The translations under genes and the position numbers were made by a program. The notes beneath the pieces were generated by a model, which was not told where the DNA came from, made no database searches, and saw only the letters and a program-made list of their open reading frames with translations. A stretch of 41,098 nt of DNA from a virus, in IMG/VR virus record IMGVR_UViG_3300033153_013458, positions 1 through 41,098 of that record; one strand, 5' to 3'. Shown piece by piece: positions 4,016-38,942 of the stretch. Each line of letters begins with the position of its first letter. Position 1 is the first letter of the stretch.

Positions 4016-4367
4016 CGTTGAAATTGCGGACACTTCGGAAAAATTGGCTCAAGGATTGATGTTTCGAAAATCATTGGATCAAGACGATGGAATGTTATTT
4101 AAGTTTCCATCGAAGAATTTTATGTCTTTTTGGGGAAAAAACACATATATTCCTCTTGATTTGGCTTTCATCAACAATGAGGGAAAAATCATAGAGATAA
4201 AAGAAATTGTTCCAATGTCTACAAAAGCAATACGCAGTGCTTTTCCTTGTCGTTATGCGCTGGAAGTCAATGCTGGTTTTTTTGATGAGCAAGACATCAA
4301 AGTCGGATCAAAGATCGAAATTGATGAAAAAAATGGAAAGATAAAATTTTTCAATGAATTGGTTTAA
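4002..4367 (+). CDS. DUF192 family protein
   Basis: This 121-residue protein covers the whole DUF192 fold: LAQGLMFRKSLDQDDGMLF, then FWGKNTYIPLDLAFINNEG, an I..I..I strand pair and YALEVNAGFF near the end. These match the family signature of 'GLM.R..L....GMLF', 'W..NT.IPLD..F' and 'LE..AG'. Members are small beta proteins, often secreted in bacteria and also carried by phages; their biochemical role is not established. There is no signal peptide here, so it is probably cytoplasmic. It overlaps genes on both sides by 14 bases, indicating translational coupling. Confidence 0.85.
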   Translation: MKRINVEIADTSEKLAQGLMFRKSLDQDDGMLFKFPSKNFMSFWGKNTYIPLDLAFINNEGKIIEIKEIVPMSTKAIRSAFPCRYALEVNAGFFDEQDIKVGSKIEIDEKNGKIKFFNELV

Positions 4368-4770
4368 GAAAGCAAAATCTCGTTTACAAGAAGCAATTGA
4401 AAGATTTGGATTTACGAACGATTTTCGTGAAGCAGGTTACATTTTGACTGATAGAAGCATGTTGGACCTTAGCAGGAAAAGAGAATGCGTTCTTACGACT
4501 ACGGACAAGGATTAGGCGGAACTGGGGGCAGATTAGATTTTATGAAAGAAACAGGAGCTATTCGATTTGAGTTCTATAATGGTGACACGATTTCTCTCCA
4601 CATGCTTCTTCCTCCGACTATTCGGCAAAATCAATTAATTGCTAATTTGGTGAAAATTTTAGGCAAAGCAGGAGAAGTGGTAATTAATGCTTCTGGATTT
4701 AAAGATTCGATAGATTTTTTTTCCTGGTTATAACTATCAAGTTAGACAAGTTTTGGATTCTTTACGTTGA
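4354..4770 (+). pseudogene. MNWFKKA-motif protein broken by two compensating frameshifts
   Basis: ATG 4354 starts MNWFKKAKSRLQEAIERF and stays open for 53 codons to a TAG near 4515. Near the A4 tract 4477-4480 the coding signal jumps by -1 to the frame starting MRSYDYGQGLGGTGG (ATG 4485), which stops at TAA 4731-4733 just after a T8 tract (4715-4722). A +1 shift at that tract returns to the first frame and reads FFPGYNYQVRQVLDSLR, ending at TGA 4768-4770. That stop overlaps the next gene's TTG start, exactly the junction style of this run. Adding one base and removing one base would restore a 139-codon gene. The cause may be two indels in the sequence data or a decayed gene. The segment 4485-4733 could still be made alone (82 residues). 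Confidence 0.6.
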
Positions 4771-6212: not shown

Positions 6213-6248
6213 AAATTAAAATACAAGGGAATTAGGGTTAGTTTTTAG

Positions 6249-6272
6249 TATAATTTAAATCAAAAAAGAGGT
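6249..6272 (+). promoter_or_regulatory. -10 element and ribosome binding site for the 526-residue protein gene
   Basis: The 67-base gap after 6212 contains TATAAT (6249-6254) and then AGAGGT (6267-6272), seven bases before ATG 6280. No convincing -35 hexamer is visible. This is the first real gap in the run and probably marks a new transcript start. Confidence 0.45.
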
Positions 6273-6279
6273 CAATAAA

Positions 6280-10486: not shown

Positions 10487-13400
10487 ATGTTCAACTTAAA
10501 AAAATATAGATATGCAGATACTCAAGATGCAAGTTTCGTAGAAAACATATCAAATAAAGGTGATATTCAGAATTTTCCTCCAGATTTAAGAAACGTTGCT
10601 CTTGAAACTCAAGATAATCTTGAAAATGCAGATGTAGAAAAAGAAGAGGTTGAAAAAACATACGAAACGTCTGATTTAAAGGAGCAATTTAACAACTATT
10701 CCAATCTCGCTTATTTAAAAATGTTGCAGGATAAGTACGAAGGTGTTCCTGAATTTCAAGATCTTATAGTTAAACTTCAAGCCAGGGAAATAACAGAAGG
10801 TGATCTAGAAAATTTTAATGAAATCATGCAAAAAGTTTTAAACGGAGAAATCTCGCCAGAAGAACAAATAGCAATTAGTGGCACTGATGTCCAATCCGCA
10901 GCAGCAAGCATGTTTAATAGAGACTTGCCATTAATTCAACAGACAATCTACAAGGAAAGAGAAGCAAGAGAAAATGCACAAGTCGCATCTTCTTCAAAAC
11001 AGGTTAAAAAAGGACAAATTATTCCAGACCAAAATTTAATGAATGAACAAAATAATCAAGTCATGTCGACTGTCCTTCCTGTTGAAGACATTGGCGATTT
11101 TATAAATAAAATGGTTAAAATCATCTTAAGCGGAGATGAAACAAGTTTTAACCAAGCTCAATCTGAAATTGTGTCTAATGTGTCTGCCGATTTGGAGCAG
11201 GAAGCTCAAAGTGCTTTTGGCTCCTTGAAAGAATTTTTAGGAAGAGCAGAGGAAGAAGAAGAAATTGCTTCAATTCTTACTAGAGTCTATGGACTTCTTC
11301 CTTCGACACAAAGCTCTGGTGAAGCAACTTTGCAAGAGGAGCCGATGATGGCTAAGTCATTTAATCTTTCAAAACATTCAGAGAAAGAAGAGGGACTGAC
11401 AAAAGAAGCCTATTTCCATGTCGGTGATAGCTACTTGATGTACGGTCCAACTGAAAAACGAATTTGTCCAAAATTAAGAGGAAGAGGCGGTGGAAAACCA
11501 GGAGGCTCAGATGTCGTGTCTGAAGAAATTTGCCGTTTTCACTGTCTCGATGGGATAATCATAGATGATAATAAAACTATCTGTGGCGAAGCACTTTGGC
11601 GTGCTAATGTGATGGATAAGTTCAGTCGTGAATATGTTGATAAAGAAGGAAAAATTGTTGGTGGGTATTTGAATAAGAGATTTGAAATTGATCGAAATGT
11701 GGCACCAGAAAACAGCGCTCGCCTGAAACCAGGAGAAACTAGAAAACCTAGACCTCCAGAATTAGGCGTCACCGAATCTCGAATGCAAGCAATGCGAAAT
11801 AAAGAAGGAGAAGCAAGAGATTATCGTCCTGCGACCAATACTGGTCAGCCCTTCAATTGGCAAAAAGATGTAGATCAAAACAATGTCAACCAGACTCAAA
11901 AAGAACGAGATCGTAGAGAAGAAGCAATGGGTCATCAGTTGGTTCAATACACAAATAAAGAACAACTGGAAAACCATCCGAAGATGGAAAAACAAGCTCA
12001 AGTTATTCCAGACGATGGTTACGCTGATGGAGGCGAACCATATACTGACGAAGAAATGGATTTAATGGCAAAGCCCATTAAGCCTACTGTTCTCGATAAT
12101 GGCATTCGCATATATAAAATTGGCAATATGTTTTTACCTGGTCTCAATTTTAACCCGAGATATGAAAACCGCTTTGGTCGTATATTGATTGGAGGAGATA
12201 GAGGAGATGTCATTGCAGATAGTGCTTATAATGATGAGAAAAATGGAAAAAGAGGGGTTTTTCTTAGGAATGTAATTTTTAGAACAACTATTGATTTTGA
12301 CGATCTCCTGCCAGAGGAACTTCGTAATGAAGCCGAAAATGTGATACTTTTTGCTTATGAATCCATTCAAGGGGATGCCTTCATTCCTCAAAAAAATGCA
12401 AATAAACCAAAATTAAAAAAACAATTCGCCAAAGAAGCAAAAGGGAAGAAATTCATTCAGGATGCAGTTAAAGACGAAGGATCATTTACAGAATATTGTG
12501 GTGGAAAAGTCACTCAAGAATGCATAGAACGTGGCAAAAAAAGTCCAGACACCAAAACGAAACGTAGAGCCAATTTGGCTGAAACTTTGAGAGGATTGCC
12601 AAGAAAAAAGAAAAAAGCATTTAACCTAAATGAATATAAAAGTGCTGCTAAAGAACCAAAAAAAGCAATAGCTAATTCACCAATTGTCGCTTATCAAAAA
12701 CTCGTTAGTGAAGTGACAACAGCAACTAGCCCTGAACAACTGGATTCAATTAATAAAAGAGCCATTAAAGCTGAATTGCCAGATCTTCTTGGAAGGCAAC
12801 TCAGCGATGCTATTTTAGAAAAATCTAGAGAACTATCAAAAAATGATGATTCTCAGCTGATCGATTCTCCAAAAGACGAAGCCAAACCAATGATGATTTC
12901 CCAGGAAATGGGAACGGCAGTGATAAATCCTTCTGCTACATCTTCTCAAAAAACAAAAAAAGCAAAGTCAAAGTATCCAAAATCTGAAACAACTCCTTAT
13001 AATCCATGGGCAGTTTGTTTTGTTCCTGGAACATTTGTTACAATGAAAGACGGAACATCTGTTCCTATTGAAAAAATAAAAATTGGAGATTATGTTATTT
13101 CACATCGTGGAAATCCACAAAAAGTTACGAAAGTTTTTAGTAGATTTGTTGATGAAAAATTGTTAAAAATACAAGTTAATGGTGTTGCAGACAAAACAAT
13201 TGTCACAAAAGATCATCCATTTTTTGCCATGACTTCTACAAGAAATTTTAAAGGTTATGCGAAAGATCAGAATAAAAACAAAACAGGAAAACGATGGTAT
13301 TCAGATACCTATGAAGACAGTCCCAAATTTATAAAAGCTCGATATTTAAAAAAAGGCGATGCTTTACATTCTCCAAGTATCAATTTTCTAGACAGGGATG

Positions 13401-15163
13401 TATCATTGAATATCAACGAACAAGATGCTTTTGTTATGGGTCTATATTGTGCAGAAGGATGTCTTGATAGAAGGCCAGTAGCGAAAACATGGAAATGCGG
13501 GAACAGACATAATAGAAAGGACACATTTGTTCCTGTGGACAAGAGCTATAGAATCAAATTCGCTTTAAATAATTTTGAAGATAAATTTGCTATTAATTTT
13601 TTGAAGAAATATAGTAATAATAAACTTAATATTTATGGACCATATAGATCTAGTCCCAAAGCAGTTTATATAATTCTTTCATCAAAAAGTTTATATAATT
13701 TATGTGAAAAACATATTGGAAAATATTCTCAAAAGAAAACTTTAAGTAATGCACTCATGAGTATGTCGCCTGCTATTTTGCGATATTTTCTTATTGGTTA
13801 TTTTTTGGGAGATGCCAATATAGAAAGAAGTTCTTTTCAAAAGAAAAATAATAAGTATTCATCGTTTCAATCTTCAGGAAAAATGAAAATATATGCCACA
13901 TCTGCTTCTAGAAATTTAATAAATCAACTATTTTGGATTTGCGAGAAATGTGGCATTGTAGCAACTACAAGAAAACAAAAAGAAAATAGGGGACCATATA
14001 ATAGAGAAAAATCATATTATAATTATGGGGTAGAGCTTGATGCAACCGAATCCTGTAAACTTTTGCCAGAATTTAATAAATTAAAAGTTTTTGGAGATGA
14101 CATTTTGATTACTCCGTCTGGTCGAAAAGCTCAAAGATTTGCTATGGCAGCCTGTACCTATGGAAAAGTTATTTCAGTTAGTGAAACTGATTATTCAGGG
14201 AAGACTTATAATCTTGAGGTAGAAAATGATAACACTTATGTTGCCAATCTTTGTTCCGTTCATAATTGTTCAGAATCAACAGGAAGAGAAGATAAAGAAA
14301 AATACGAAAGCTGTGTGCAGGACGTCAAAAAACAAAACAGAAAAAGTAACAAACAAAAAAAGAGTAAATCAGCAAGCAATAAAACAGCAACTTATGGTTG
14401 GTCTTTCTCTCAAGATTTTTATGAAGAATTAGAAAGAGCATTAGAAAAGAACATTTTATCTGATCCGGTTTTTAAAAAAGGATTAGAAGATTTGCTCGGT
14501 TTCGCTAGAGAAGGAGCCTATGCCGAAGGAGTTCCAGTTGACATTTTAATAGATTCTGCAATGGAACAAGCGGAACAAGTTAATACTGTTACCGATCTAT
14601 CCTCTCCTGTGGAAGTCTGGATTGACGAGGAAGGATATTTAACTGTTGAAGTTCCAGAAAGGGATGACTTCAACTATGAAGGAGAAAATCTTGCCAAATC
14701 TTTTAATCTAAAGAAATTCAAAACCGCTCAAATGACAGGATTAAGAGGACCAGTTGGTCCAGAAAATCCAATATCAGATGATCTTGGACTAAGTCCAGAT
14801 TATTTGCCAGATGAAGACTTTGATAAAGAAGTGCCTCTAAGCGAAGTGGTAGAAGAATATATGGGCGAAGTAGATCGAGCAGAAAATTCAGAACAACTAC
14901 TAAAGGCAATTCTTGATGCTCATAAAAATTGGAAAACAGAAGGATTGTCAATGCGAGATCTAGACCAAATCATGGACGCTGCTTATGATAGAGGAAAAGA
15001 ATTAGGTGTGGATTTGGAACAGGAACTTTATGGTGAATCAGATCGTGTCTTTGAAGACATAGGAATTGAAGGACCTCCTATTACACAAAGAAGCAGAGGA
15101 CCTAGATATTTCGCTAAAAACAAAAAACCAATTAAAGAATCTCAAACTAAAAAAAAAAGTTAA
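10487..15163 (+). CDS. Giant multi-module virion-type protein containing an intein
   Basis: The frame encodes 1558 residues; removing the intein (13016-14266, 417 residues) leaves 1141. The start MFNLKKYRYAD is echoed three more times inside: SFNLSKHSEKEE near 11353, AFNLNEYKSAAKE near 12617 and SFNLKKFKTAQ near 14698. It therefore looks like four units fused head to tail. One unit has CPKLRGRGGGKPGG and CRFHCLDG (possible metal site). After splicing, NPWAV joins CSESTGREDKEKYESC, a motif I associate with tailed-phage virion proteins. The region after the intein (ILSDPVFKKG to IEVW-like VEVWIDEEGYLTVEVPE) is duplicated in the next reading frame. The frame ends at an A10 tract followed by AGT TAA; see the frameshift entry. 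Function is unknown. Confidence 0.8.
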   Translation: MFNLKKYRYADTQDASFVENISNKGDIQNFPPDLRNVALETQDNLENADVEKEEVEKTYETSDLKEQFNNYSNLAYLKMLQDKYEGVPEFQDLIVKLQAREITEGDLENFNEIMQKVLNGEISPEEQIAISGTDVQSAAASMFNRDLPLIQQTIYKEREARENAQVASSSKQVKKGQIIPDQNLMNEQNNQVMSTVLPVEDIGDFINKMVKIILSGDETSFNQAQSEIVSNVSADLEQEAQSAFGSLKEFLGRAEEEEEIASILTRVYGLLPSTQSSGEATLQEEPMMAKSFNLSKHSEKEEGLTKEAYFHVGDSYLMYGPTEKRICPKLRGRGGGKPGGSDVVSEEICRFHCLDGIIIDDNKTICGEALWRANVMDKFSREYVDKEGKIVGGYLNKRFEIDRNVAPENSARLKPGETRKPRPPELGVTESRMQAMRNKEGEARDYRPATNTGQPFNWQKDVDQNNVNQTQKERDRREEAMGHQLVQYTNKEQLENHPKMEKQAQVIPDDGYADGGEPYTDEEMDLMAKPIKPTVLDNGIRIYKIGNMFLPGLNFNPRYENRFGRILIGGDRGDVIADSAYNDEKNGKRGVFLRNVIFRTTIDFDDLLPEELRNEAENVILFAYESIQGDAFIPQKNANKPKLKKQFAKEAKGKKFIQDAVKDEGSFTEYCGGKVTQECIERGKKSPDTKTKRRANLAETLRGLPRKKKKAFNLNEYKSAAKEPKKAIANSPIVAYQKLVSEVTTATSPEQLDSINKRAIKAELPDLLGRQLSDAILEKSRELSKNDDSQLIDSPKDEAKPMMISQEMGTAVINPSATSSQKTKKAKSKYPKSETTPYNPWAVCFVPGTFVTMKDGTSVPIEKIKIGDYVISHRGNPQKVTKVFSRFVDEKLLKIQVNGVADKTIVTKDHPFFAMTSTRNFKGYAKDQNKNKTGKRWYSDTYEDSPKFIKARYLKKGDALHSPSINFLDRDVSLNINEQDAFVMGLYCAEGCLDRRPVAKTWKCGNRHNRKDTFVPVDKSYRIKFALNNFEDKFAINFLKKYSNNKLNIYGPYRSSPKAVYIILSSKSLYNLCEKHIGKYSQKKTLSNALMSMSPAILRYFLIGYFLGDANIERSSFQKKNNKYSSFQSSGKMKIYATSASRNLINQLFWICEKCGIVATTRKQKENRGPYNREKSYYNYGVELDATESCKLLPEFNKLKVFGDDILITPSGRKAQRFAMAACTYGKVISVSETDYSGKTYNLEVENDNTYVANLCSVHNCSESTGREDKEKYESCVQDVKKQNRKSNKQKKSKSASNKTATYGWSFSQDFYEELERALEKNILSDPVFKKGLEDLLGFAREGAYAEGVPVDILIDSAMEQAEQVNTVTDLSSPVEVWIDEEGYLTVEVPERDDFNYEGENLAKSFNLKKFKTAQMTGLRGPVGPENPISDDLGLSPDYLPDEDFDKEVPLSEVVEEYMGEVDRAENSEQLLKAILDAHKNWKTEGLSMRDLDQIMDAAYDRGKELGVDLEQELYGESDRVFEDIGIEGPPITQRSRGPRYFAKNKKPIKESQTKKKS
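13016..14266 (+). mobile_element. Intein with LAGLIDADG endonuclease in the giant virion-type protein
   Basis: This in-frame insertion of 417 residues begins with Cys in CFVPGTFVTMKDG (block A) and has the block B motif TKDHPFF. It carries two LAGLIDADG-like helices (VMGLYCAEG and LIGYFLGDAN) and ends with YNLEVENDNTYVANLCSVHN, followed by Cys as the first C-extein residue. All residues needed for standard Cys-to-Asn/Cys protein splicing are visible. The host sequence rejoins as NPWAV-CSESTG. The acid residues of both LAGLIDADG helices are present, so homing activity is plausible. Confidence 0.92.
15149..15158 (+). other. A10 tract: probable -1 frameshift joining the giant protein to the next frame
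   Basis: The zero frame reads ACT AAA AAA AAA AGT TAA. A -1 slip on the A run (A AAA AAA type) reads AAA AAG TTA ATT CCT and stays open to 15834. The -1 frame from 15151 encodes the missing first half of a repeat that is complete in the giant protein, so the two frames belong to one coding unit. This is either programmed slippage giving two products or a one-base length error in the homopolymer. Confidence 0.6.
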
Positions 15164-15842: not shown

Positions 15843-18800
15843 ATGCCCGATAAAGGAATTATAATTCAACCAGGTGATCCCGAGTTTAATGACCCATCCT
15901 ATAAAGAAGGATGGGGAAATTCCTTGCCGCCAAAAGAAGCAATGCAGAAGAAAATGTCAGAACTCGGAAGCACCTATAATCATGCTTTGCCTACGACTGC
16001 CGTCACTCCGTATTTTCATAAGACGGCACAATCATCCGATATCAATACAATCTTTACGAATCCAATGTGGTTTTCACCACTGCATACCCCACAATCGTGG
16101 CAAATAGCTAGCAGGCGCAGAGAGATTTACCAATGGTCGTTTGTTTCTTCGAAAAAACCGTGTTTTCTAACGAAATATGGCGATTTTTCGCTAGAAAAGA
16201 TTGAAGATATATATACATTAATGAACTCGAAGGTCGTTGAAAACAAGGATTTGTATATACAAAACGCTAAAAGCCAACCTGCAAAAATCGACATTGCTAC
16301 CAAACGTCATGTTAAAAAGAAAGCAAATGAAATTAAAGTGATGGGCATTTCTCTGCCAATCACTGTCACACATGATCACGATTGCATGGTGGTTGAGAAA
16401 AAACAAGTCAAGTGTTCTAAAGGCATTAATAAGTCTAAAAATTGCATTCGAAACATGAATTCTCCAATTTGCCAAGGAATCAAATGCCGAAAATGGGAAA
16501 CTGTGGATTATGAAATTTCTAAAAAGAAAGCAAGAGATGTCAAGAAAGGTGATTATTTTCTTGTTCCATTTTCAAAGGAAGTGAAAGAAAGTGTCATTAA
16601 AACTGAAGCACAGGCCAAGTTTGCTGGACACCTTGCTTCTGATGGTTGTGTGTCTCCAGATCGAGTCGGTGTTAGAATTTTTATGCATTCAGATGAAGTC
16701 GAATATGTTCTTCCTCCAGTGAAAGAAACATTTAATGATTTTGGTTTTTCTCCAGGCGTGAAAACTTCACGGCATTCACAATGTCTCGTCACAGCAAGAA
16801 CTGGAAGCATTGCTATTACTGAATTCGCCAAAAAACTAGTTAAAGGAAAAAGTATAAATAAAAAGTTCACTGAAGAAGTGATGCTGCTTGAACCAGAACT
16901 CCAAAAACATGTTCTCGGAGCTTATATTCAATCTGATGGATCGCTTTCTAAAAGTAGCGACAATGTTGAAATAACAACTATTTCTCCTCATCTTGCGAAT
17001 CAATTGTTGATGATTTGTTTTCGATGTGGTATTTTAGCATTTTGCGGAAGATATAATATTAGTCAATCGTCAAAAACTTTTCCAACCAAAAATAAACATC
17101 GTTATGTCATCACCATTCCATCCTCAGATGTATATTCATTAGCTCCTTATGTTCCTGGAAAATTAGGCATTTTTAATAGAGACGAAGACGAAGAAAACGA
17201 AGAATTTGTATATACATACACTATGTTAGATGGCGATATGGGAAAGGTGAATCAACTCATTCCTCCCAAGAAAAAACGCACTCATAACAAGCGATTCTTC
17301 TGGAAAAACTATGTCATAACTCCAGTAACAGCAAATACTTCCTTTGATTACGAAGGTGATGTCTATGACGTGAGAGCACCAGATGATTTTACAGTCACAG
17401 CGAATGGCGTTGCCATACATCAATGTCGATTCTTCTACCAGTGTTTTACTCCTGAAAATTTAGTGTTGATGGCAAACGGAACTGAAAAAAGAATAGACAA
17501 AATCAAAAGAGGCGATTTAATTATAGCTGGTGATGGAAGTTCACAAGAAGTTAAAAATATCTTTAAGAGATGGACGAAAGAAAAAGCATTAGAGATTGGC
17601 GTTAGCGGAAATACCAGAAAAATAAAATGCACAAATAATCATATCATTCCGAGTATCGACAAGGATACGTGGCGTAAAAGCCATTTAACTACACCTTCTG
17701 AGAGAAGAAAAAAAGAAAGATTAAGAGATAACGATGATGTCGAATTTAGGATTAAGTGGGATTGTGCTGAGAATCTCTCGTTGAATTCTTTTCTTTATAC
17801 TCCTTCTACCAATATCGGCAATGGATATGATGCCTCTCTAGAAAAATGTTATGTTTTTGGTGCTTTCGTTGCTGAAGGAAGCTATTATTGGCATTTGTAT
17901 AAAGGAGAAAAGAAAAGAACTAAAGGAATTAGGTTTTCAATAAATAAAAACGAGGTTTCAGACGATAATTCTGAAAATTTGTTTGGAAATAGAATTATTC
18001 GATTTTTGAAAAAATCTCAACACAACAAAGTATCTCTGTATTCAGCTGGGAAAAATGAAAAAGGAGTAGAAAAAAACAGTTGTGACATTAGTGTTAGCAA
18101 TGTAGATTTTACAGAAGAATTTTATAAATTTTGTGGAAATAATCCAAAAATCATTAATTTTGATTTTATTAATTCTGCTTCAAAAGAACAATTATTATCA
18201 TTCTTGGCAGGTTATATTGACGGAGATGGGTGCTATAATGTTTCAAACGGATGCCAAATTATTACTTTTGATAAGAATTTAGCATCACAAATTTCTTTTA
18301 TTTGTGAAAAATTAAAGTTAACTTATTCTCTATCACAATCAAAATCAAGCGGTTTTAGCGATGGAGAAAATTACGATGCTAATAACGTTGATCGATTTTG
18401 TATCAGAATTTCTCGATTTGCTTGTGAATCTTTAAAAAAATATTCTTGTAAAATTACAAATCTTGATGTTCATAATACTAAATATGGAAATTATTTATTT
18501 GTTGATGACAAAATATACAGAAAGATAAATTCTATTTCCGAATTCACTTATGAGGGATATGTATACGATCTCGAAATAGATAACGTGCATTCTTATTGCG
18601 TAAATAGAATGGCAGTTCATAACAGCGAACCCAAGGTTGCTGCAGGCATCGATTTTTATAGTCAATTTCCAGTTAACGGGTTCAAATTGGTTTGGCCACA
18701 TAGTACGGGAGAAAGAAAACTTCTTAAATTTTTTGAACGAGAAACCAAACGCCTCGATCTTGTTAACATTCTGAGACAAATTTCTAGTGAATATTACATG

Positions 18801-21800
18801 TTAGGTGATGTTTTTCCTCATGCTGACATTTCTTGTCCGACTTGCAAAGGCAATCCTTATAATCCAATGACTGGAGAAATGTGCAATCATGCAGGCGGGA
18901 ACATCAGTCGCATTAAAATTTTGAATCCTGATTGGATCGAAGTGACGGACACCATTTTTGCTGACGAAGAGCAAATTGTGTTGATTCCAGATGAGCAAAT
19001 TGTGAGAATCGTTTCTACTAAACAGCCAAGACAAATTTATGATCGATTGTCGCCTCAAATCAGGCAACTCGTAATGGCACAAAAACCGATTTTGTTGTCG
19101 AATCGAGTAGTGAGTCATTTGAAGCACATGCCTGCCCCGTATGGAATATACGGCACCTCTCTCATTCGTCGTCTTTTCACAACTCTTGCTTACAAAACGA
19201 AAATCATGACGGCGAATTGGATTGTTGCTGAAAGGCTGATCATTCCAGTTCGGATCGTCAAAATCGGAAGTGACAATCGTCCTGCGACTTCGGCAGACAT
19301 CGCAGAATTCAATCAAATGTTGGCGGCAACAACGAATGATCCTAATTTAACTCTCGTCACACATCACAATCTAGACTATGATTGGATCGGTGCTTGTCAC
19401 GATGAAGAAACCGAGGTTCTAACTTCTTCTGGTTTCAAGAAATATGGATCTTTCGATTCTGATGAAGAAATTCTCACTTATAATGTATATACAAAACGTC
19501 TGGAATATCAGAAGCCACAGGCGTTTCATGAGTTTGATTATGATGGAGATTTGGTTCATTTCGAAGGAAAGCAAATTGATATTAAAGTCACGCCCAATCA
19601 CAGAATGCTTGTTCAAAAACGAAGATCTGATGATTGGCATGTCAAATTTGCAGATGAAGTCAGGTCAGGAGATCATCTTCTTGCTCATGCTCAATATGAC
19701 GGCGAAAAATTCAATCCTGTAGTAAACATTCATGATCAATTAGTGGACTTGAAAGATTTTCTATCTTTTGTTGGTTATTATTTGTCTGAGGGATCAATCA
19801 AATTCAACAAAAAACGCAGGGAATACATTGTTACGATTGATCAGAGTCCGAAAATCAATCCAAAAATTTGCGAATGCATAGAAAAAACTCTCTCTTCTCT
19901 TCCTTATAAATATTCTGTCTTGAAGAACGATGACAAAAATCGGTATCGAATTTTCAAGAAATCGTTGTGTGTGTTCTTGGAAGAGAATTTTGGTCGTTAT
20001 TCCAGAAATAAGAAAATTCCAAATTGGATTAAAAATCTTCCTTCCGATTATTTAAGAGTTTTGATTAATTCATTGATGAACGGAGATGGTTATAGCATTA
20101 AAAACATTCACACTCGCAACAAAATCTATACTACTATCTCTAAAACATTAGCAGATGATGTACAAGAAATTGCCTTTAAGTCTGGTTATAATGTTCGTAT
20201 TCTTAAAGAGAAAACTAAAAACGTCAATATAGTCTATCGTGTTCGTTTTAGTGAAGGAAAATGGAGCAAAGGCAACGAACCTCGACTCAAAAAGCATCAC
20301 ATTTCTCGCGTTCCTTACAAAGGCAAAGTTTGGTGTTTCACTGTGCCGAATGGATTTTTTGTCACTCGACGCAATGGCAAGATCGCGATTCAAGGCAATT
20401 CAGGCAAGATTCTTCAACTCGGTCAAGAAATGGAGCATATTGACAAAGAGATGTTGGATGGTTTGATGTTAAATCAAGCATTGCTCAATGGCGAGATGTG
20501 TTTGACGGGCGATCATGAAGTCTTGACTGATTCTGGTTATAAAATGATTGATTGTGTTGAATTCAAGGATCAATTGTGTGTTTGGGATGATGACAATCGA
20601 ACCTATCGATTTGAGAATCCCAGAGACATTTTTAAATATGAAGATGTTGATGACATTTTCGAAATTCATTGTGGTAGAAAGATTCTTTTCAAATGCACTG
20701 GTGCTCATAAAATTGTCATTCGACCAGAAAAAGATCATCAAAAACATGATACCATTACTGCCAAGGAATTATTTAATAACGAATCTCAACATGTATACAC
20801 ATTGATGAGGGATGGCAATTATTGCGAGATTACCAATGTAGTCAAGAAGCCGCATAAGAATGCTGTTTATTGCTTTAAAACGAGTACTGGTTATTTTATG
20901 GCTCGTTATAGAGATTTTGAATTTATAAGTAGCAATTCTGGATACCAATGTCATGATGTTGATCAAACAGAAGTCTTGACACAAAGTGGATTCAAAAAAT
21001 ATGACGATATTACCGAGGATGATTTAATTGGAACTTTTAACGAAAAAACAGAGGAACTTGAGTATCAGCCTTATTCTAATCGTTATGATTATTCTTATGA
21101 TGGAAGAATGATTCATTTTAAATCAAAACGTATGGACTGTTTGGTTACTCCAAACCATAGGATGTTAATTAGAAACAGAAATAGTCGAAATAAAGATAAA
21201 TGGGAAATCTCTTTTGCAAAAGACGTAACGCCAAGTCACCAATTTAGGACTGTTGTTAATAAATGGCAAGGAAGAAATAATTTTCCAAAAACAATTAGAA
21301 TTGACAATGAATACGAATTGGATCTTGAAGATTATATCAAATTAGTTTGTTATTTTGCTGCTGAGGGATCTATTCGTCGTGAGACAAGAAAAGAAAGATC
21401 TACTTTTGGAGAACCAGCTACTACAACAATTTGCCAGTCTGAAAAGGGGAAAGCATTTATTGGTATCAAAAAACTTTCTGATTCGATTTCATATCGTGTA
21501 CGACACTATGCAAAATATGATCAATTTTGTATACATAACAAAAAGCTGACTACCCATTTGATTAGTGCGTGTGGTTCTCGTAGCGAGAATAAACGCATTC
21601 CTTCTTGGATTAAAGAATTGCCGACCAGATATTTGCATTTAGCTATTAATTGTCTTATCGAAGGAGATGGTTATTTAGAGCATTCTGTTAAAAACGGTTA
21701 TCAATATGGATTTGAAGTTAAAAGCAAGCAATTAGCTGAAGACTTGTATGAAATAGCATTTAAATGCGGTTATTCGCCACTCATGGCAAAACGCAAAAGA

Positions 21801-23078
21801 CGAGATCTTTGGGCAGTGGATTTTTCTGATGCTCCTAGCGGTCGCTATCCATATTTAACAAGCAAATATATTGAAGAAGAAAACTATAAAGGTAGAATTT
21901 TTTGCTTTACAGTTCCAAATGGTTTATTTATAACAAGAAGGAATGGTAAAATTTCCATTCATGGGAATAGCGCTCAAGTTGGTGTAGAAGTTTTGATTCG
22001 TCGTCTTGAGGCTTGGCGCACTACATTGGCTGAATGGGTTGAGGAGCGAATTTTCAAGCCAATCGCTCAAATGAAGGGATTAATTGACAAGGAAGCCAGT
22101 GAGGAGTCAGGAGAAAACATTTGGCTTTATCCCATTTTAAAATGGAATGATCTTAATCTGAAGGACAAGACACAATGGTATCAACTTCTCATGCAGCTTC
22201 ATGATAAACAAGTTATTTCAACTCAAACTCTTTGTGATGAGCTTGATTTAAATTACGATCAAGAAGTTGAGCGTTTGCGTTATGAAATGGCACAGGCAGG
22301 TCCAATGGGGGCTCAACTCGGTGGAATGGGTGAAATGGGTGGCGGAATGCTTGGCGGCGGTCTTGGTGGCGGTGGCATCAGTGCTCCAGGCGGTGGTGCT
22401 GCAGCTCCACCGCCTCCAGGTGGAATTCCTGGAATGCCTGGAGGCGAAATGGGCGGTGGAATGCCTGCGCCAGGTGGAGCCCCTGGTGGTGCAGCAAGTC
22501 CTATTGCCGCTGGTCAACCGATGAAAGTTTTAAAACGCAGCAAAGCAAAAGCGATTCAGGAGAAGCAAGAACCGATGCAGTTTGGTCAGGTGAAATTCAC
22601 TGGAATTGAGCAGGAATTTCGCAAGATGTTAGACAATGTTGTTAGTACAATGAAGATTAGTTCTCCTTATTATTTTCAATATAAAGTAGAAAAGACTGCG
22701 GGTGGACAACCTTATTCCATTGATTTTGCTTTTCCAAAACTTCGGCTTGGCGTTGAATTAGATGGCAGTGTCTGGCATAGCAATCCAAAGCAAGTACAAC
22801 ATGATCGGCAAAGGGATAACGAACTAGCAATGAAGGGGTGGACGGTTCTCAGGTTTGATGACAAAACAATGGAAAGTCAGCCAAATGCAGTTCAAAACGT
22901 TGTTGTCAGTTATTTACAAAAAGCCATGTCGAGAGGAAGAGTCAAGAGATCCAAGGTGGACTCTGGAGACGGTGACACTAACTACATCACTGTTTATGCT
23001 GATCGTTTAATCAACGTTTACAAAGACGAGTTGCCTGAAGGATTAATCAAATTGGCATTAGGAGAAGAGGAATGTTAA
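15843..23078 (+). CDS. Portal protein interrupted by five inteins, with C-terminal DUF559/Vsr-like nuclease domain
   Basis: The frame has 2411 residues. Five inteins occupy 1644, leaving about 767. The rejoined host reads ...RRREIYQW-CRFFYQ-SEPKVAAGIDFY..., ...DWIGA-SGKILQLG..., ...NGEM-SGYQ-SAQVGVEVL..., which reads as a continuous portal: the N-terminal YQWCRFFY/AAGIDFY region, a Cys/His knuckle (CPTC and CNHAGG), KTKIMTANWIVAERL, and the helical stem and crown. Portals form the dodecameric DNA channel at one capsid vertex. A Gly/Met/Pro-rich linker (about 22290-22520) leads to YSIDFAFP, LGVELDGSVWH and GWTVLRFDDKTM, the pattern of a DUF559/Vsr-type PD-(D/E)XK fold. AGGTGA lies before the ATG. 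It overlaps the next gene by 7 bases. Portal identity is fairly sure; the role of the nuclease-like tail is unknown. Confidence 0.88.
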   Translation: MPDKGIIIQPGDPEFNDPSYKEGWGNSLPPKEAMQKKMSELGSTYNHALPTTAVTPYFHKTAQSSDINTIFTNPMWFSPLHTPQSWQIASRRREIYQWSFVSSKKPCFLTKYGDFSLEKIEDIYTLMNSKVVENKDLYIQNAKSQPAKIDIATKRHVKKKANEIKVMGISLPITVTHDHDCMVVEKKQVKCSKGINKSKNCIRNMNSPICQGIKCRKWETVDYEISKKKARDVKKGDYFLVPFSKEVKESVIKTEAQAKFAGHLASDGCVSPDRVGVRIFMHSDEVEYVLPPVKETFNDFGFSPGVKTSRHSQCLVTARTGSIAITEFAKKLVKGKSINKKFTEEVMLLEPELQKHVLGAYIQSDGSLSKSSDNVEITTISPHLANQLLMICFRCGILAFCGRYNISQSSKTFPTKNKHRYVITIPSSDVYSLAPYVPGKLGIFNRDEDEENEEFVYTYTMLDGDMGKVNQLIPPKKKRTHNKRFFWKNYVITPVTANTSFDYEGDVYDVRAPDDFTVTANGVAIHQCRFFYQCFTPENLVLMANGTEKRIDKIKRGDLIIAGDGSSQEVKNIFKRWTKEKALEIGVSGNTRKIKCTNNHIIPSIDKDTWRKSHLTTPSERRKKERLRDNDDVEFRIKWDCAENLSLNSFLYTPSTNIGNGYDASLEKCYVFGAFVAEGSYYWHLYKGEKKRTKGIRFSINKNEVSDDNSENLFGNRIIRFLKKSQHNKVSLYSAGKNEKGVEKNSCDISVSNVDFTEEFYKFCGNNPKIINFDFINSASKEQLLSFLAGYIDGDGCYNVSNGCQIITFDKNLASQISFICEKLKLTYSLSQSKSSGFSDGENYDANNVDRFCIRISRFACESLKKYSCKITNLDVHNTKYGNYLFVDDKIYRKINSISEFTYEGYVYDLEIDNVHSYCVNRMAVHNSEPKVAAGIDFYSQFPVNGFKLVWPHSTGERKLLKFFERETKRLDLVNILRQISSEYYMLGDVFPHADISCPTCKGNPYNPMTGEMCNHAGGNISRIKILNPDWIEVTDTIFADEEQIVLIPDEQIVRIVSTKQPRQIYDRLSPQIRQLVMAQKPILLSNRVVSHLKHMPAPYGIYGTSLIRRLFTTLAYKTKIMTANWIVAERLIIPVRIVKIGSDNRPATSADIAEFNQMLAATTNDPNLTLVTHHNLDYDWIGACHDEETEVLTSSGFKKYGSFDSDEEILTYNVYTKRLEYQKPQAFHEFDYDGDLVHFEGKQIDIKVTPNHRMLVQKRRSDDWHVKFADEVRSGDHLLAHAQYDGEKFNPVVNIHDQLVDLKDFLSFVGYYLSEGSIKFNKKRREYIVTIDQSPKINPKICECIEKTLSSLPYKYSVLKNDDKNRYRIFKKSLCVFLEENFGRYSRNKKIPNWIKNLPSDYLRVLINSLMNGDGYSIKNIHTRNKIYTTISKTLADDVQEIAFKSGYNVRILKEKTKNVNIVYRVRFSEGKWSKGNEPRLKKHHISRVPYKGKVWCFTVPNGFFVTRRNGKIAIQGNSGKILQLGQEMEHIDKEMLDGLMLNQALLNGEMCLTGDHEVLTDSGYKMIDCVEFKDQLCVWDDDNRTYRFENPRDIFKYEDVDDIFEIHCGRKILFKCTGAHKIVIRPEKDHQKHDTITAKELFNNESQHVYTLMRDGNYCEITNVVKKPHKNAVYCFKTSTGYFMARYRDFEFISSNSGYQCHDVDQTEVLTQSGFKKYDDITEDDLIGTFNEKTEELEYQPYSNRYDYSYDGRMIHFKSKRMDCLVTPNHRMLIRNRNSRNKDKWEISFAKDVTPSHQFRTVVNKWQGRNNFPKTIRIDNEYELDLEDYIKLVCYFAAEGSIRRETRKERSTFGEPATTTICQSEKGKAFIGIKKLSDSISYRVRHYAKYDQFCIHNKKLTTHLISACGSRSENKRIPSWIKELPTRYLHLAINCLIEGDGYLEHSVKNGYQYGFEVKSKQLAEDLYEIAFKCGYSPLMAKRKRRDLWAVDFSDAPSGRYPYLTSKYIEEENYKGRIFCFTVPNGLFITRRNGKISIHGNSAQVGVEVLIRRLEAWRTTLAEWVEERIFKPIAQMKGLIDKEASEESGENIWLYPILKWNDLNLKDKTQWYQLLMQLHDKQVISTQTLCDELDLNYDQEVERLRYEMAQAGPMGAQLGGMGEMGGGMLGGGLGGGGISAPGGGAAAPPPPGGIPGMPGGEMGGGMPAPGGAPGGAASPIAAGQPMKVLKRSKAKAIQEKQEPMQFGQVKFTGIEQEFRKMLDNVVSTMKISSPYYFQYKVEKTAGGQPYSIDFAFPKLRLGVELDGSVWHSNPKQVQHDRQRDNELAMKGWTVLRFDDKTMESQPNAVQNVVVSYLQKAMSRGRVKRSKVDSGDGDTNYITVYADRLINVYKDELPEGLIKLALGEEEC
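16137..17423 (+). mobile_element. Portal intein 1 (LAGLIDADG; Ser1, C-terminal Gln)
   Basis: 429 residues from SFVSSKKPCFLTKYG to NGVAIHQ, with Cys as the next extein residue. Block A is LTKYGDFSLEKIEDI and block B is TVTHDHD. The LAGLIDADG-like helices are FAGHLASDGCV and VLGAYIQSDGS, and block F is GDVYDVRAPDDFTVTANG. The boundary is set by restoring the portal motif YQW-CRFFYQ. This makes residue 1 Ser instead of Cys and the last residue Gln instead of Asn, both non-standard. An alternative start at the Cys of PCFLT would leave eight extra residues in the portal and give a block A that is too short. Confidence 0.85.
17442..18623 (+). mobile_element. Portal intein 2 (LAGLIDADG; Cys1, HN, +1 Ser)
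   Basis: 394 residues from CFTPENLVLMANG to VNRMAVHN, followed by Ser of SEPKVAAG. Block B is CTNNHIIPS. The LAGLIDADG helices are VFGAFVAEGSY and FLAGYIDGDGC, the second nearly consensus. Block F is YEGYVYDLEIDNVHSYCVN. It starts only 18 bases (residues CRFFYQ) after intein 1 ends. Splicing residues and both endonuclease acids appear intact. Confidence 0.92.
19395..20399 (+). mobile_element. Portal intein 3 (LAGLIDADG; ends GN, +1 Ser)
   Basis: 335 residues from CHDEETEVLTSSGFKKYG to RRNGKIAIQGN, followed by SGKILQLG. Block B is VTPNHRMLVQKR. The endonuclease motifs are FVGYYLSEGSI and LINSLMNGDGY, and block F is YKGKVWCFTVPNGFFVTRR. The penultimate residue is Gly rather than the usual His. 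It is clearly related to intein 5, which shares both ends. Confidence 0.92.
20499..20936 (+). mobile_element. Portal intein 4 (mini-intein without endonuclease)
   Basis: 146 residues from CLTGDHEVLTDSGYKMI to YRDFEFISSN, followed by SGYQ. Block B is CTGAHKIVIRP and block F is NAVYCFKTSTGYFMARY. There is no LAGLIDADG helix between them, only about 60 residues, so it is a natural mini-intein that can splice but not home by itself. The penultimate residue is Ser instead of His. Confidence 0.88.
20949..21968 (+). mobile_element. Portal intein 5 (LAGLIDADG; paralogue of intein 3)
   Basis: 340 residues from CHDVDQTEVLTQSGFKKYDD to RRNGKISIHGN, followed by SAQVGVEVL. Block B is VTPNHRMLIRNR. The endonuclease motifs are LVCYFAAEGSI and AINCLIEGDGY, and block F is YKGRIFCFTVPNGLFITRR. 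It begins just 12 bases (residues SGYQ) after intein 4 ends. Both ends match intein 3 closely, pointing to a common ancestor. Confidence 0.92.
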
Positions 23079-28972: not shown

Positions 28973-30109
28973 ATGAAGAGAGAGAAGTGGAATAGAGAAA
29001 AAATAATAAGTAGAATTTCACATCTTCAAAAAAATAACATTCCATTAAATTCAGGTTTCATACAAAACCGTTATCGTGCATTATATCTGGCTTCATGTAG
29101 GCATTTTGGAAGCTGGACAGAAGCACTTGCAGCTATTGGAGTTGATTCGTGTAAAGTTCTTGTAAGAAAAAAATGGAATAAACAAAAAACTATCGATGAA
29201 ATTCTTGAAAGAAAAAAAGCAAATAAACCGTTAAATTCTAATGTTATTCAAAATAATGACAAGAAATTAATGGCAGCAGCACTCAAATATTTTGGTGATT
29301 GGAATTCCGCAATTAAAGCCAGTGGGTTAGATATTGATGAAATTCGAAAACCCAATAAAAATTGGGCAATTGGCGATATGAAAGAATTGGCTGAAAGGAA
29401 AGGAGGAAAGTGTTTATCTGAAAAATACATCAATGCAAAAACTTATATGAAGTGGCAATGTGCAGATGGACATGTTTGGACAGCTAAACATAACTGCATC
29501 AGACGTAGTTGGTGTCCATATTGCTCAAGGTATTTATCAGAAGAGAAATGTCGTTTTATTTTTGAAGAATTAACAGGAGAAAAATTCCAACGAACTAGAA
29601 AAATTTTAGGGAAAGGATTTGAGCTAGATGGATATTGCAAAGATCTAAAAACTGCTTTTGAATATCAAGGACAACAACATTATTATTTTGTTAAGTATTT
29701 TCATAAAACAAGAGAGAAACTTGACAAAATAAAAGAAAGAGACAAATATAAAATAAAGAGATGCAAAGAATTAAAAGTGTCTTTAATAGTCATTCCTTAT
29801 ACTGTTTTTGACAATTCTAACGAAGTTAATTTTATATTTCGAAATCTCCAATTACTTAATGTTAAAACAATATGTAATGTTGAAGATTTTTCTTATGATG
29901 GATTTATTAATTCTAAACTTTTATCAATTAAGAAAATTGTTAAAGAAAAAGGTGGAAAATTAATTTCCAATTTTTATGCAGGAAGTAGTCATCCAATAAT
30001 AATTGAATGTAAAAGAGGACATATGCATAGCACGACATGGGACATATTAAAGCAGGGTCACTGGTGTGCCAAATGTGGCTATTTAGATAGATACAAGAAA
30101 GCATCTTAA
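28973..30109 (+). CDS. Free-standing homing endonuclease-like protein (HNH-associated repeats, zinc ribbons, PD-(D/E)XK-type core)
   Basis: The 378-residue protein starts with two copies of a helical repeat: W...I...I......N.PLNS..IQN...L..A....FG.W..A....G. This is the type known as the homing-endonuclease-associated repeat. A zinc ribbon follows (CADGHVW with CPYCSRY), then FELDGYCKDLKTAFEYQGQQHYYF and RDKYKIKRCKELKVSLIVIPY, which fit a PD-(D/E)XK/Vsr-like core with Asp, Glu and Gln/His. The C-terminus has a second ribbon (CKRGHMH and CAKCG). Such enzymes cut specific DNA to spread their own gene. It has its own -10 element and a terminator and sits between protease and head genes, so it looks like an inserted cassette. 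Confidence 0.8.
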   Translation: MKREKWNREKIISRISHLQKNNIPLNSGFIQNRYRALYLASCRHFGSWTEALAAIGVDSCKVLVRKKWNKQKTIDEILERKKANKPLNSNVIQNNDKKLMAAALKYFGDWNSAIKASGLDIDEIRKPNKNWAIGDMKELAERKGGKCLSEKYINAKTYMKWQCADGHVWTAKHNCIRRSWCPYCSRYLSEEKCRFIFEELTGEKFQRTRKILGKGFELDGYCKDLKTAFEYQGQQHYYFVKYFHKTREKLDKIKERDKYKIKRCKELKVSLIVIPYTVFDNSNEVNFIFRNLQLLNVKTICNVEDFSYDGFINSKLLSIKKIVKEKGGKLISNFYAGSSHPIIIECKRGHMHSTTWDILKQGHWCAKCGYLDRYKKAS

Positions 30110-36212: not shown

Positions 36213-36797
36213 ATGGCTCTTAAGGAAATTTATCATACGGTTGCATCAGTGCTTCCTATCGATGCCGATGCAGGGACTATTCCTGCAGGATTGCTCGTGA
36301 CTTTGGATGCAAACTTCCTGGTCTCGTTGCCAAATGCTGCTGCCGATATGTGCGTTGGAGTCGCAGGAGACACGAAAAGACAGGCTCCTGGACAGAACAA
36401 TCCAGAAAGTGCGAATGTCGTTATGGGGTCTTATCAAACTACTACTTCTGGGGCAACTCGATGGACCCAGAACAGAGTAGCTGATAACTATAACGAAGTT
36501 CTCGCCAGTTCCGAAATGACGGTCTATCACGGAGCAGGCGAATTCTGGACTGACCAATATGCCAGCGAAAGTACCACAGGTGGAGCGTTGACTTGGACGG
36601 GTGCGGCTCCGTTGTATAACACGTTCGGCACGAATGCGAATGTGACTGCTGGTTCTTGGACTACTGAAAACACTGGCTCATATATCAGCGGATGTTTGCT
36701 TGGCGAACCTCAGGCACTTCCCTCAGGTGTTCCAGGCACTGATGTTCAAGGCTCAATTTCTTATGGAAACTACATCCACTTGAGATTGTGGCACTAA
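36213..36797 (+). CDS. Head decoration-like protein
   Basis: This 194-residue protein has a strong ribosome binding site (AAGGAGGT) before ATG 36213 and lies directly upstream of the capsid gene. It is rich in Gly, Ala, Thr and Ser with regular short strands (AGLLVTLDANFLVSLPNAA, CVGVAGDTKRQ, SEMTVYHGAGEFWTDQYAS, YGNYIHLRLWH). This is typical of phage head decoration or stabilisation proteins. Codons and base composition look more GC-rich than in most neighbours, as in the capsid exons, fitting high expression. No specific family is certain. Confidence 0.65.
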   Translation: MALKEIYHTVASVLPIDADAGTIPAGLLVTLDANFLVSLPNAAADMCVGVAGDTKRQAPGQNNPESANVVMGSYQTTTSGATRWTQNRVADNYNEVLASSEMTVYHGAGEFWTDQYASESTTGGALTWTGAAPLYNTFGTNANVTAGSWTTENTGSYISGCLLGEPQALPSGVPGTDVQGSISYGNYIHLRLWH

Positions 36798-36900: not shown

Positions 36901-37062
36901 ATGTTTGATAAGAATAGTTTGACTAACGAACAGAAAGAGGCTGTCATCGCACAGGCTCTGAACACCGATGAAGGTCGAACTGCACTCGCACAGGCCATGG
37001 TAGAACCAATTAGACGTTCGCTTGAGTATCAGGCTGTTGGACGTAAGTTGCTCTTGGTGGAT
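36901..37062 (+). CDS. Major capsid protein, 5' exon (residues 1-54)
   Basis: ATG 36901 has AAGGAG upstream. The exon reads MFDKNSLTNEQKEAVIAQAL to EYQAVGRKLLLVD and, without splicing, would stop at TGA 37063-37065. It is highly expressed-type sequence, more GC-rich than the intron that follows. The last six codons pair with the intron's internal guide (see intron). Joined to the 3' exon it gives KLLLVD-ELPQGALARYERD in one frame, a 289-residue capsid protein. Confidence 0.88.
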
Positions 37063-38162
37063 TGACCTAAAAAGCTTGTCCACCTAGAGTTGTGAAACTC
37101 TATAAAAAAATCGTGCTCATAACGGAGAACCCTAAGTTGTATAAAAAAATGAAAATTGAAACAAAAGAGAATAAAACGCATATACAATATGGTAACTCCG
37201 TGGGAAGTTTAAGGAAAATTCTAATAGGATTGCAATGAGTAAGAAAACGCGAATAATAAAAGAAGAATTAACAAAACTCTATGTAGAACAGGATAAAACT
37301 ACTTATGAAATTGCTTCTATTTATAGTTGTGATAGAAGAACAATTTCGCGTTATCTTAAGCAATATGGAATAACCATAAAAAGACACAAACGAGCCTATT
37401 CGTTTTATTATGAACAAAAATTAAATGACATTCAAAAAGATTTAATTCTAGGGAGTTTGATAGGTGATGGATGCATTTCCAAACATCACGATGGAGTTAA
37501 TTCTTGCAGATTTTTAGAACAACATTCCATAAGACAATTGGAATACCTGAAATGGAAAAAAGAGATATTAAACAATTTCGTTTCCTCTGATATTAAAATA
37601 ATTGATAACTCAAAAAACAATAGTTATGGAAACGAATTAAGTTGTAATTTTATCACTGTTCTTCATAAAGAATTTGTAAAATTTTATGAAATGTTTTACA
37701 AAAACAAAGTGAAGAGGATCCCTTATTTTCAATTGTCACCTATTAGTTTAGCGGTATGGTATTTTGATGATGGAAGCATAAGCAAATTGGGGCAAAAGGG
37801 CAATTACTATAGTGCTAGATTTCATACAGAATCTTATGATGACGAAAGTATAGCTAATTTACAAAAAATGCTTAAAGATATGGATATTTCGTCTAACACT
37901 ATTAATGTGAAAAAGAAATATAAAATTATCTCTCTTCCACATATAGAAACTAACAAATTGATGAATATTATTGCTCAATATGCAAACTCAATACCATGCA
38001 TGGCTTATAAAATAAAGTTTTCCGATAACCCCGTAGAGACTCAGGCTTTTATGTCTGGAGTGCCAATTCTGAAATGTTTTGGTGCTAACACGCACGACTC
38101 TCTGTTTTCATTCAGAGATGATGGTATAGTCCGTGGCTCCCGAAAGGGATGACCATTTCTCG
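37063..38162 (+). ncRNA. Group I intron in the major capsid protein gene
   Basis: The intron is 1100 bases. P1: exon GGTGGAT (37056-37062) pairs with GTCCACC (37078-37084), with the required U-G wobble at the 5' splice site. P10: AGCTT (37073-37077) pairs with the first exon bases GAGCT (38163-38167). P2: AGAGTT/AACTCT (37086-37101) with a GTGA tetraloop. CGGAG (37123-37127) pairs with CTCCG (37196-37200). P7: CACGACT (38093-38099) with AGTCCGTG (38128-38135) and a bulged C. P8: CTCTG/CAGAG (38100-38117). ATGGTATAGTCC matches the conserved P7 3' segment. The last base is G (38162). It is self-splicing by family knowledge and carries a LAGLIDADG gene in its middle. Confidence 0.9.
37235..38152 (+). 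CDS. LAGLIDADG homing endonuclease encoded in the group I intron
   Basis: The protein has 305 residues. Residues about 10-50 form a helix-turn-helix (TTYEIASIYSCDRRTISRYL). The two LAGLIDADG helices are LILGSLIGDGC (acid Asp78) and SLAVWYFDDGS (Asp178/179), so a single chain can form the full active site. Such enzymes cut the intronless allele at the insertion site and spread the intron; some also help splicing. The gene runs into the intron's 3' core and stops at TGA 38150-38152, ten bases before the 3' splice site, so core RNA and coding sequence overlap. AAGGAAAA lies upstream of the ATG. Confidence 0.9.
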   Translation: MSKKTRIIKEELTKLYVEQDKTTYEIASIYSCDRRTISRYLKQYGITIKRHKRAYSFYYEQKLNDIQKDLILGSLIGDGCISKHHDGVNSCRFLEQHSIRQLEYLKWKKEILNNFVSSDIKIIDNSKNNSYGNELSCNFITVLHKEFVKFYEMFYKNKVKRIPYFQLSPISLAVWYFDDGSISKLGQKGNYYSARFHTESYDDESIANLQKMLKDMDISSNTINVKKKYKIISLPHIETNKLMNIIAQYANSIPCMAYKIKFSDNPVETQAFMSGVPILKCFGANTHDSLFSFRDDGIVRGSRKG

Positions 38163-38870
38163 GAGCTGCCACAAGGCGCTTTAGCCAGGTACGAAAGAGA
38201 CGTTGCTGCGATTGCTCATGTCATCTCACGTCGAGGTGCCGTGCCTGATCAGATTCAGGAAGGCGAAGAAATTTTGGTTCCCACTTTCGAGATTGCTGCG
38301 AATCCCACAGTTCGTTTGTCTGAAATCAAAGCTCGTAGGTTCTATATCGTAGACAGAGCCCAGATTAAGGCAAAAGAGGCGATCCAGAAAGAGGAAGACA
38401 CCAACATTTTCAATGCTTTGCTTGCGGCTGTCAATAACAGAGCAACGCAAATCGTAACGAACGTTGGTACACTATCGCCTGCTTCCTTGAATACGGCTTT
38501 CCGTTTTGTTGAAGAGCATGACTTGGTTGCCACAAAAGTGGTATGCCATGCTCAGCAGTATGCGGCAATTCGTACTTTCGGAAAAGACTTCTATGATGAG
38601 GCAACGACAAGAGAAATCTTGACGTCTGGCCTCTTCGGGCACCTCTGGACCGCAGACATACACGTCTCATCTAGAATGCCAACTGACGAAGTCTTGATAT
38701 GTGCATCGCCCGACACTGTCGGTGCTTTCCCGATTCGTCAAGACATAACAGTATTGCCAGCGGATGATCCTAAGAAACTCCGCTTGGGCTGGGTTATTTA
38801 TGAGGAAATCGGAATAGTTGTCGTCAATGATTATGCTGTTAGTAAAATTGAAATCACTACTGGAACATAA
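38163..38870 (+). CDS. Major capsid protein, 3' exon (residues 55-289)
   Basis: This exon begins ELPQGALARYERDVAAIAHVI directly after the intron's terminal G. It continues with GAVPDQIQEGEEILVPTFEIAANPTVRLSEIKARRF, a helical ED..IFNALLAAV segment and a C-terminal beta-rich region (EILTSGLFGHLWTADIHVS, VLICASPDTVGAFPIRQDI, GWVIYEEIGIVVVNDYAVSKI). This is the order of an HK97-fold capsid protein: N-arm, E-loop, spine helix, P and A domains. At 289 residues it is of ordinary size. An apparent ATG at 38133 lies inside the intron and is not the start. A strong terminator follows at 38907. Confidence 0.88.
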   Translation, partial: ELPQGALARYERDVAAIAHVISRRGAVPDQIQEGEEILVPTFEIAANPTVRLSEIKARRFYIVDRAQIKAKEAIQKEEDTNIFNALLAAVNNRATQIVTNVGTLSPASLNTAFRFVEEHDLVATKVVCHAQQYAAIRTFGKDFYDEATTREILTSGLFGHLWTADIHVSSRMPTDEVLICASPDTVGAFPIRQDITVLPADDPKKLRLGWVIYEEIGIVVVNDYAVSKIEITTGT

Positions 38871-38906: not shown

Positions 38907-38940
38907 AAAAAAGAGCATTCCATTCGGGGTGCTCTTTTTT
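38907..38940 (+). terminator. Rho-independent terminator after the capsid gene
   Basis: AAAAAAGAGCATTCC pairs with GGGGTGCTCTTTTTT around loop ATTC, with two G-T pairs near the loop, and ends in T6. It closes the head-gene transcript. Confidence 0.9.
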
Positions 38941-38942
38941 CA

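Follow-up and report, generated by a model that had tools for sequence, protein, structure and literature searches.

A predicted mobile group I intron with an I-SceI-like endonuclease gene in the major capsid gene of a phage-G-like phage

Capsid introns of phages and the locus compared

Group I introns have been described in several phage genes, including capsid genes. Mycobacteriophage LittleE (Cluster J) harbors a probable group I intron in its major capsid gene, with splicing shown by reverse transcription-PCR and N-terminal sequencing (PMC3706429), and a capsid intron of Tuc2009 is cited in the same publication. Phage introns of the IA2 and IA3 types were described, as were genes with up to three introns in the Bastillevirinae (PMC11878797), where Twort orf142 is also cited as one gene with three introns (Landthaler and Shub 1999). 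Many group I introns were also reported for huge gut phages (PMC12363816).

The virus record IMGVR_UViG_3300033153_013458 was analyzed over its complete length of 41,098 bases, which is “the window” in the following. Its major capsid gene is split by a predicted group I intron (Table 1). Like the LittleE intron, this intron carries an open reading frame (ORF) for a LAGLIDADG-type endonuclease and has relatives with empty sites (PMC3706429), but LittleE is an unrelated phage with an unrelated capsid family, its intron is 819 bp long, and its ORF is I-CreI-like and located on the opposite strand, whereas that of the window is I-SceI-like and located on the sense strand. Capsid introns with a LAGLIDADG gene were thus already known, and the present one is located in a new capsid family and has a well-resolved fold.

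The helices of the window intron follow the same order as those of the T4 td and IA2-type phage introns, including P7.1 and P7.2 between P7 and P3, an ORF looped out of P6, the U-G pair in P1, P10, and the omega-G. The td intron differs by its other host gene and its GIY-YIG endonuclease I-TevI, and only the ORF of the window reads on through P7, P3, P8, and P9.

The split capsid gene

In the ORF list of the window, this region appeared in three pieces: a 5′ part of the capsid gene, short and beginning at 36901, and two ORFs of 305 aa (37235-38152) and 245 aa (38133-38870). Exon 2 (ELPQGALARYERD...) matched NF042927, “HK97-fold major capsid protein,” with an E value of 4e-45 (154 bits, cutoff 80) and phrog_2522 with 1e-50, and was 52% identical to gp27 of Bacillus phage G, the annotated major capsid protein of this phage. 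The gp27 gene is homologous but uninterrupted, reads VGRKLLVVD/PLPQGAL at the position of the junction (slashes indicate junctions), and its product aligned end to end with that of the uninterrupted homologue L002, with 55% identity over 281 aa of the whole protein including the junction. An AlphaFold model of L002 was of low confidence (pLDDT of 53), and nearly all matches listed by Foldseek for this low-confidence model were HK97-fold capsids or encapsulins, with TM-scores near 0.2. The ORF at 36213-36797 upstream of the capsid gene occupies the position of the phage G capsid decoration gene gp26. The window comes from a large, phage-G-like phage, and a single major capsid gene was found in the contig. 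No match at the DNA level was found in annotated phages, and a scan of genome contigs yielded one contig of a metagenome-assembled genome.

Eighty relatives of exon 2 from viral contigs were read upstream in frame. At least 70 of the related capsid genes, plus gp27 of phage G, were uninterrupted across VGRKLL[LMV]VD/(E/P)LPQGAL. All but six of the 80 showed VGRKLL(L/M)VD/ELPQGAL or a near variant across the junction or had an interruption only further upstream. The six exceptions were L026 and L054, interrupted at the site used in the window, L001, L004, and L005, interrupted further upstream, and L051, which was cut by the contig end. Residues 24 to 54 of the 54-codon N-terminal part were nearly invariant among the uninterrupted relatives. 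A previous reading of the DNA without database searches, the sequence-only reading, had named the alignment of capsid homologues across the junction as one of two points on which a split gene depends; this comparison was made, and the intron-less genes read straight through.

Exon 1 terminates in GGTGGAT, and the first codon of the intron is an in-frame UGA, with the junctions GGTGGAT/TGACC...TTTCTCG/GAGCTG. The sequence comparison indicated that the segment between the exons must be excised for the frame of the window to give the protein of the homologues. The insertion separates codons 54 and 55 in phase 0, and the joined frame comprises 54 + 235 = 289 aa, as the sequence-only reading had proposed together with the correct limits of the gene. 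A spliced transcript would contain GGTGGAT joined to GAGCTGCC across 37062/38163. Because the unspliced frame stops at the opening UGA of the intron, it is a fair inference that self-splicing would be needed for every capsid subunit. The contig is a fragment, and a second, intron-less capsid copy may be located outside of it. Just 3′ of the capsid gene, a hairpin followed by a T run at 38909-38942 (AAAGAGCA...TGCTCTTTTTT) is a likely transcription terminator.

Table 1. Features of the split capsid gene and its predicted intron in the window
Feature	Position	Strand	Evidence
Major capsid gene, split	36901-38870	+	Sequence-only reading, confirmed
Exon 1, 54 codons, end ...GRKLLLVD, last base U	36901-37062	+	Aligned to N-terminus of uninterrupted homologues
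Predicted group I intron, 1,100 nt, TGACC...TTTCTCG, omega-G at 38162	37063-38162	+	Comparison
P1, 7 bp; exon GGUGGAU 37056-37062 with IGS GUCCACC 37078-37084, U-G at 5′ splice site	37056-37084	+	Invariant in 6/6 introns
P10 5′ strand AGCUU; partner exon 2 GAGCU 38163-38167, 5 bp	37073-37077	+	Alignment
P2 hairpin, GUGA (GNRA) loop 37092-37095	37086-37101	+	Compensatory change in 6/6 pairs
P3 5′ strand UCGUGC; partner GCACGA 38092-38097	37111-37116	+	Compensatory change in 4/6 pairs
P4, ACGGAG 37122-37127 with CUCCGU 37196-37201, enclosing P5	37122-37201	+	RNAalifold and alignment
P6/P6a, GGG 37202-37204 and GUU 37207-37209 with AAC 38027-38029 and CCC 38030-38032	37202-38032	+	Alignment
Predicted LAGLIDADG homing endonuclease ORF, 305 aa	37235-38152	+	PF03161, E 2e-28; phrog_11023, E 2e-18; I-SceI, E about 3e-6
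P7 5′ strand G[A]GACU; partner AGUCC 38128-38132, bulged A38037	38036-38041	+	Invariant except one A-C in L154
P7.1 hairpin	38042-38057	+	Compensatory change in 6/6 pairs
P7.2 hairpin	38063-38082	+	Compensatory change in 4/4 pairs
P3 3′ strand GCACGA	38092-38097	+	Covariation
P8 hairpin	38099-38118	+	Compensatory change in 3/5 pairs
P7 3′ strand AGUCC	38128-38132	+	Alignment
P9 hairpin, GAAA loop	38135-38154	+	Compensatory change in 5/6 pairs
Exon 2, 235 codons + stop	38163-38870	+	NF042927, phrog_2522

Intron fold and endonuclease gene

Related introns at the identical nucleotide were present in five other viral contigs. L026 and L054 were found via the capsid protein and L082, L095, and L154 via two core DNA patterns, which also gave many further matches to other intron families or by chance. 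After endonuclease ORFs and long loops had been trimmed off, the six same-site introns, including that of the window, were aligned. The alignment contained 64 pairs in 13 helices, P7 and P10 included, and 99.2% of the cells were paired, a percentage that is somewhat favored because trimming and structure were selected with the six sequences in view; this does not explain the compensatory changes. Changes on both sides of a pair occurred at 33 of the 64 pairs, the shuffled mean was 11.5, and none of 500 shuffles was as high. Sliding the 3′ partner strands by one column decreased pairing from 99% to about 50%. Without any structure supplied, RNAalifold returned P1, P2, P3, P4, P5, P6, P6a, P7.1, P7.2, P8, and P9, with compensatory changes at 38 of its 77 pairs; pseudoknots such as P7 and P10 cannot be displayed by this program.

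The pseudoknotted P3-P7 core with P4-P6 and P8 displayed covariation in P3, P4, P6a, and P8, and P7 was nearly invariant. By analogy to other group I introns, the 5′ strand of P7 should be the guanosine-binding site. P7.1 and P7.2 between P7 and P3 mark subgroup IA and are the pattern of T4-like introns. With both predicted hairpins at this location, the core of the window intron is group IA-like.

Most of the helices in the sequence-only reading agreed with the comparison. P1 with the U-G pair at the 5′ splice site was GGUGGAU/GUCCACC in six of six introns, the P2 loop was a GNRA loop in all six, and P8 and the terminal G were supported as well. The proposed P7 with a bulged C, however, was the wrong helix, and the true P7 contains a bulged A at another position (Table 1). 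The helix of GCACGACU with AGUCCGUG is the only bulged-C helix near P8 and was hence taken as the proposed one. Its pairing in the relatives was 78.6% compared to 78.1% after shuffling, and its 5′ strand (38092-38097, GCACGA) is the 3′ strand of P3, covarying with UCGUGC at 37111-37116.

The P10 to the 3′ exon, proposed before, was also supported and has 5 bp in the window. Over the six introns, 96% of its cells were paired, with compensatory changes. The openings of exon 2 in the relatives were GAG CTG, GAG CTT, GAG CTC, GAG TTA, or GAA TTG, all encoding E-L, and the intron partner of P10 tracked these synonymous changes, as in AACUU/GAGUU of L054. L154 possesses a P10 of 7 bp, GCAAUUU/GAAUUGC, when read from the sequence since an alignment gap hides part of it, whereas just three clear pairs in a row form in L095. 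Exon 2 and intron are thereby linked, which supports the predicted 3′ splice site independently.

The window gave no match to Rfam family RF00028 at the gathering score of 50, and a permissive search resulted in 11.3 bits with a wrong alignment. Two relatives also scored below the gathering score, L054 with 21.3 bits (E value of 0.003) and the homologue L095 with 32.5 bits (6e-6). In L095, P3, P4-P6, and P7 were aligned as proposed here, and its AGACU, homologous to the P7 5′ strand, was placed on the AGACU consensus of RF00028. Large inserts lower such scores, and the gathering score is a database threshold and not a biological defining feature. The alignment of the six introns can be used to seed a model for introns missed by Rfam.

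The 305-aa ORF is looped out of P6/P6a. Its match to LAGLIDADG_2 (PF03161) covers positions 3 to 158 of 168, and two LAGLIDADG motifs, LILGSLIGDG and LAVWYFDDG, were identified by sequence reading, with the acidic residues present. Two motifs in one chain and a match over about 200 aa resemble I-SceI and the LAGLIDADG_2 proteins (PF03161 and phrog_11023), but the predicted homing enzyme of the window contains an additional N-terminal, helix-turn-helix (HTH)-like region of about 55 aa. The last ~43 codons of the ORF overlap the ribozyme core at P7, P3, P8, and P9. Since the ORF crosses the 3′ half of the core, translation could hinder splicing; a ribosome moving along the ORF would disturb the core, and this may couple expression to splicing.

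In the relatives, the endonuclease gene was found in different states. L026 contains an intact relative with 55% identity, the gene of L154 is frameshifted, and those of L082 and L054 carry an internal deletion with only the ends kept in frame. In L095, the P6 loop is short and almost bare, and a related endonuclease (34% identity) has moved to the P1 loop. Intact, frameshifted, deleted, and relocated states are as predicted for a homing cycle in which the gene is gained, decays, and invades again, and this six-member family at one site would thereby capture the life cycle of the endonuclease. A search of viral contigs with a degenerate pattern for the endonuclease gave no confirmed relative. 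In L159 (LR745208.1), a 485-kb uncultured phage, an endonuclease relative is located just downstream of, and not inside, a divergent capsid gene (34% identity).

Mobility, alternatives, and further introns

In a capsid tree of 81 proteins, the window, L026, and L054 were placed in different clades, all three with support, and each was surrounded by intron-less genes; these positions were judged from the drawn tree because the group statistic compares labeled groups only with each other. Horizontal homing would fit this scattered distribution, and so would an old presence of the intron followed by repeated loss.

For splicing, cleavage, and homing, we infer the following course. The RNA of the transcript would fold and excise itself by two guanosine-initiated transesterifications, with the 5′ cut after GGUGGAU in P1 and the 3′ cut after the omega-G, P10 aligning exon 2. 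Joining of the exons would yield the 289-aa HK97-fold capsid protein. The I-SceI-like LAGLIDADG endonuclease from the P6 loop would probably cut intron-less alleles at the conserved site, into which the intron could be copied during co-infection. The sequences themselves show the exact place of the insertion, its relatives at this site, a fold that covaries, and the families of the proteins, and covariation, PF03161, and NF042927 support the earlier proposal that the major capsid gene is split by a group I intron encoding a homing endonuclease. We regard it as very likely that the insert is a mobile, self-excising group I intron of this kind, with an endonuclease that probably cuts intron-less alleles.

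A splicing-defective or decaying copy, with the capsid protein coming from another gene, would agree with a 41-kb contig fragment beyond which another capsid copy could be located and with the decaying endonucleases of L054, L082, and L154, but it is very improbable: all core helices of the window are complete, its endonuclease is intact, and both exons contain long, open, and strongly conserved frames. A little less probable still is that no splicing occurs, the insertion is tolerated, and exon 2 is translated alone from the internal GTG at 38133 into an N-terminally shortened capsid protein. The 245-aa ORF beginning inside the intron is formally present, but residues 24 to 54, which this protein would lack, are those nearly invariant in the uninterrupted relatives, and six contigs with the insertion at this one site show strong constraint on the RNA fold. 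An intein or another insertion at the protein level, brought to mind by several inteins in the portal ORF of the same contig, has next to no probability since it is refuted by the in-frame UGA at the opening of the insert and by the RNA fold; in addition, the endonuclease is encoded in a separate frame, and the insert gave no match to a Hint or intein domain.

A self-excising group I intron, as the preferred explanation, corrects the gene calls for the phage-G-like lineage from two broken proteins to one capsid gene. The capsid introns of LittleE and Tuc2009 are joined by a further example, and relatives of the locus seem unusually rich in introns within one structural gene. These extra introns were read from assemblies only. 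L095, read on the reverse strand of IMGVR_UViG_3300025122_005837, appears to carry four group I introns in the first 54 capsid codons (about 3500-5600 in this orientation): one after IIA, a second in ALAQA, a third after EYQA, and a fourth at the site used in the window. The exons would be about 54, 45, 45, and 27 nt in length, followed by a long last exon. A U/...G/ boundary restores the frame for introns 1 and 3, and one of five frame-restoring placements of intron 2 is U/...G/ (205 nt). This stretch gave two RF00028 matches above the gathering score, 68 and 59.5 bits, one of them stretched across two introns. Three introns were found in L082 (924-4355; SLE/Y, LVD/ELPQ, and RR/F) and two in L154 (reverse strand, 3400-6319; LVD/ELPQ and DRA/QIK), and the further capsid introns in both contain LAGLIDADG ORFs. 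L001, L004, and L005 carry one intron at another, upstream site, with an approximate boundary in L005, the one read in detail. In total, about seven insertion sites are distributed across the capsid gene family. Several group I introns per phage gene, as in L095 (four) and L082 (three), resemble Twort orf142, but this is a different gene, and the window has only one intron.

The N-terminal region of the capsid gene may possibly be a battleground of competing introns, where carriage is a weapon because the endonucleases cleave the capsid genes of relatives that co-infect; this is a tentative idea that we consider rather doubtful. Intron carriage by PhiPA3 is described as a weapon between phages in PMC11620839. 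If true for the capsid genes, such a competition would involve related endonucleases at at least seven positions, genes split by as many as four introns, and exons of 9 codons.

Other mobile elements seem to be present in the window. The portal ORF (15843-23078; 2,411 aa) appears to hold five inteins, and by motif reading, the exteins that part two pairs of them are only 6 (CRFFYQ) and 4 (SGYQ) residues long. A 1,558-aa ORF at 10487-15163 contains an intein at about residues 844 to 1260, with matches to Hint, Intein_splicing, and LAGLIDADG_3. Directly 3′ of a protease-like gene, the ORF at 28973-30109 resembles a free-standing homing endonuclease (phrog_559 HNH endonuclease, E value of 9e-28; HNH_repeat). 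At the contig end, 39282-41076 encodes a serine resolvase (PF00239, 4e-18) followed by a TnpB-like ORF and resembles an IS607-type element.
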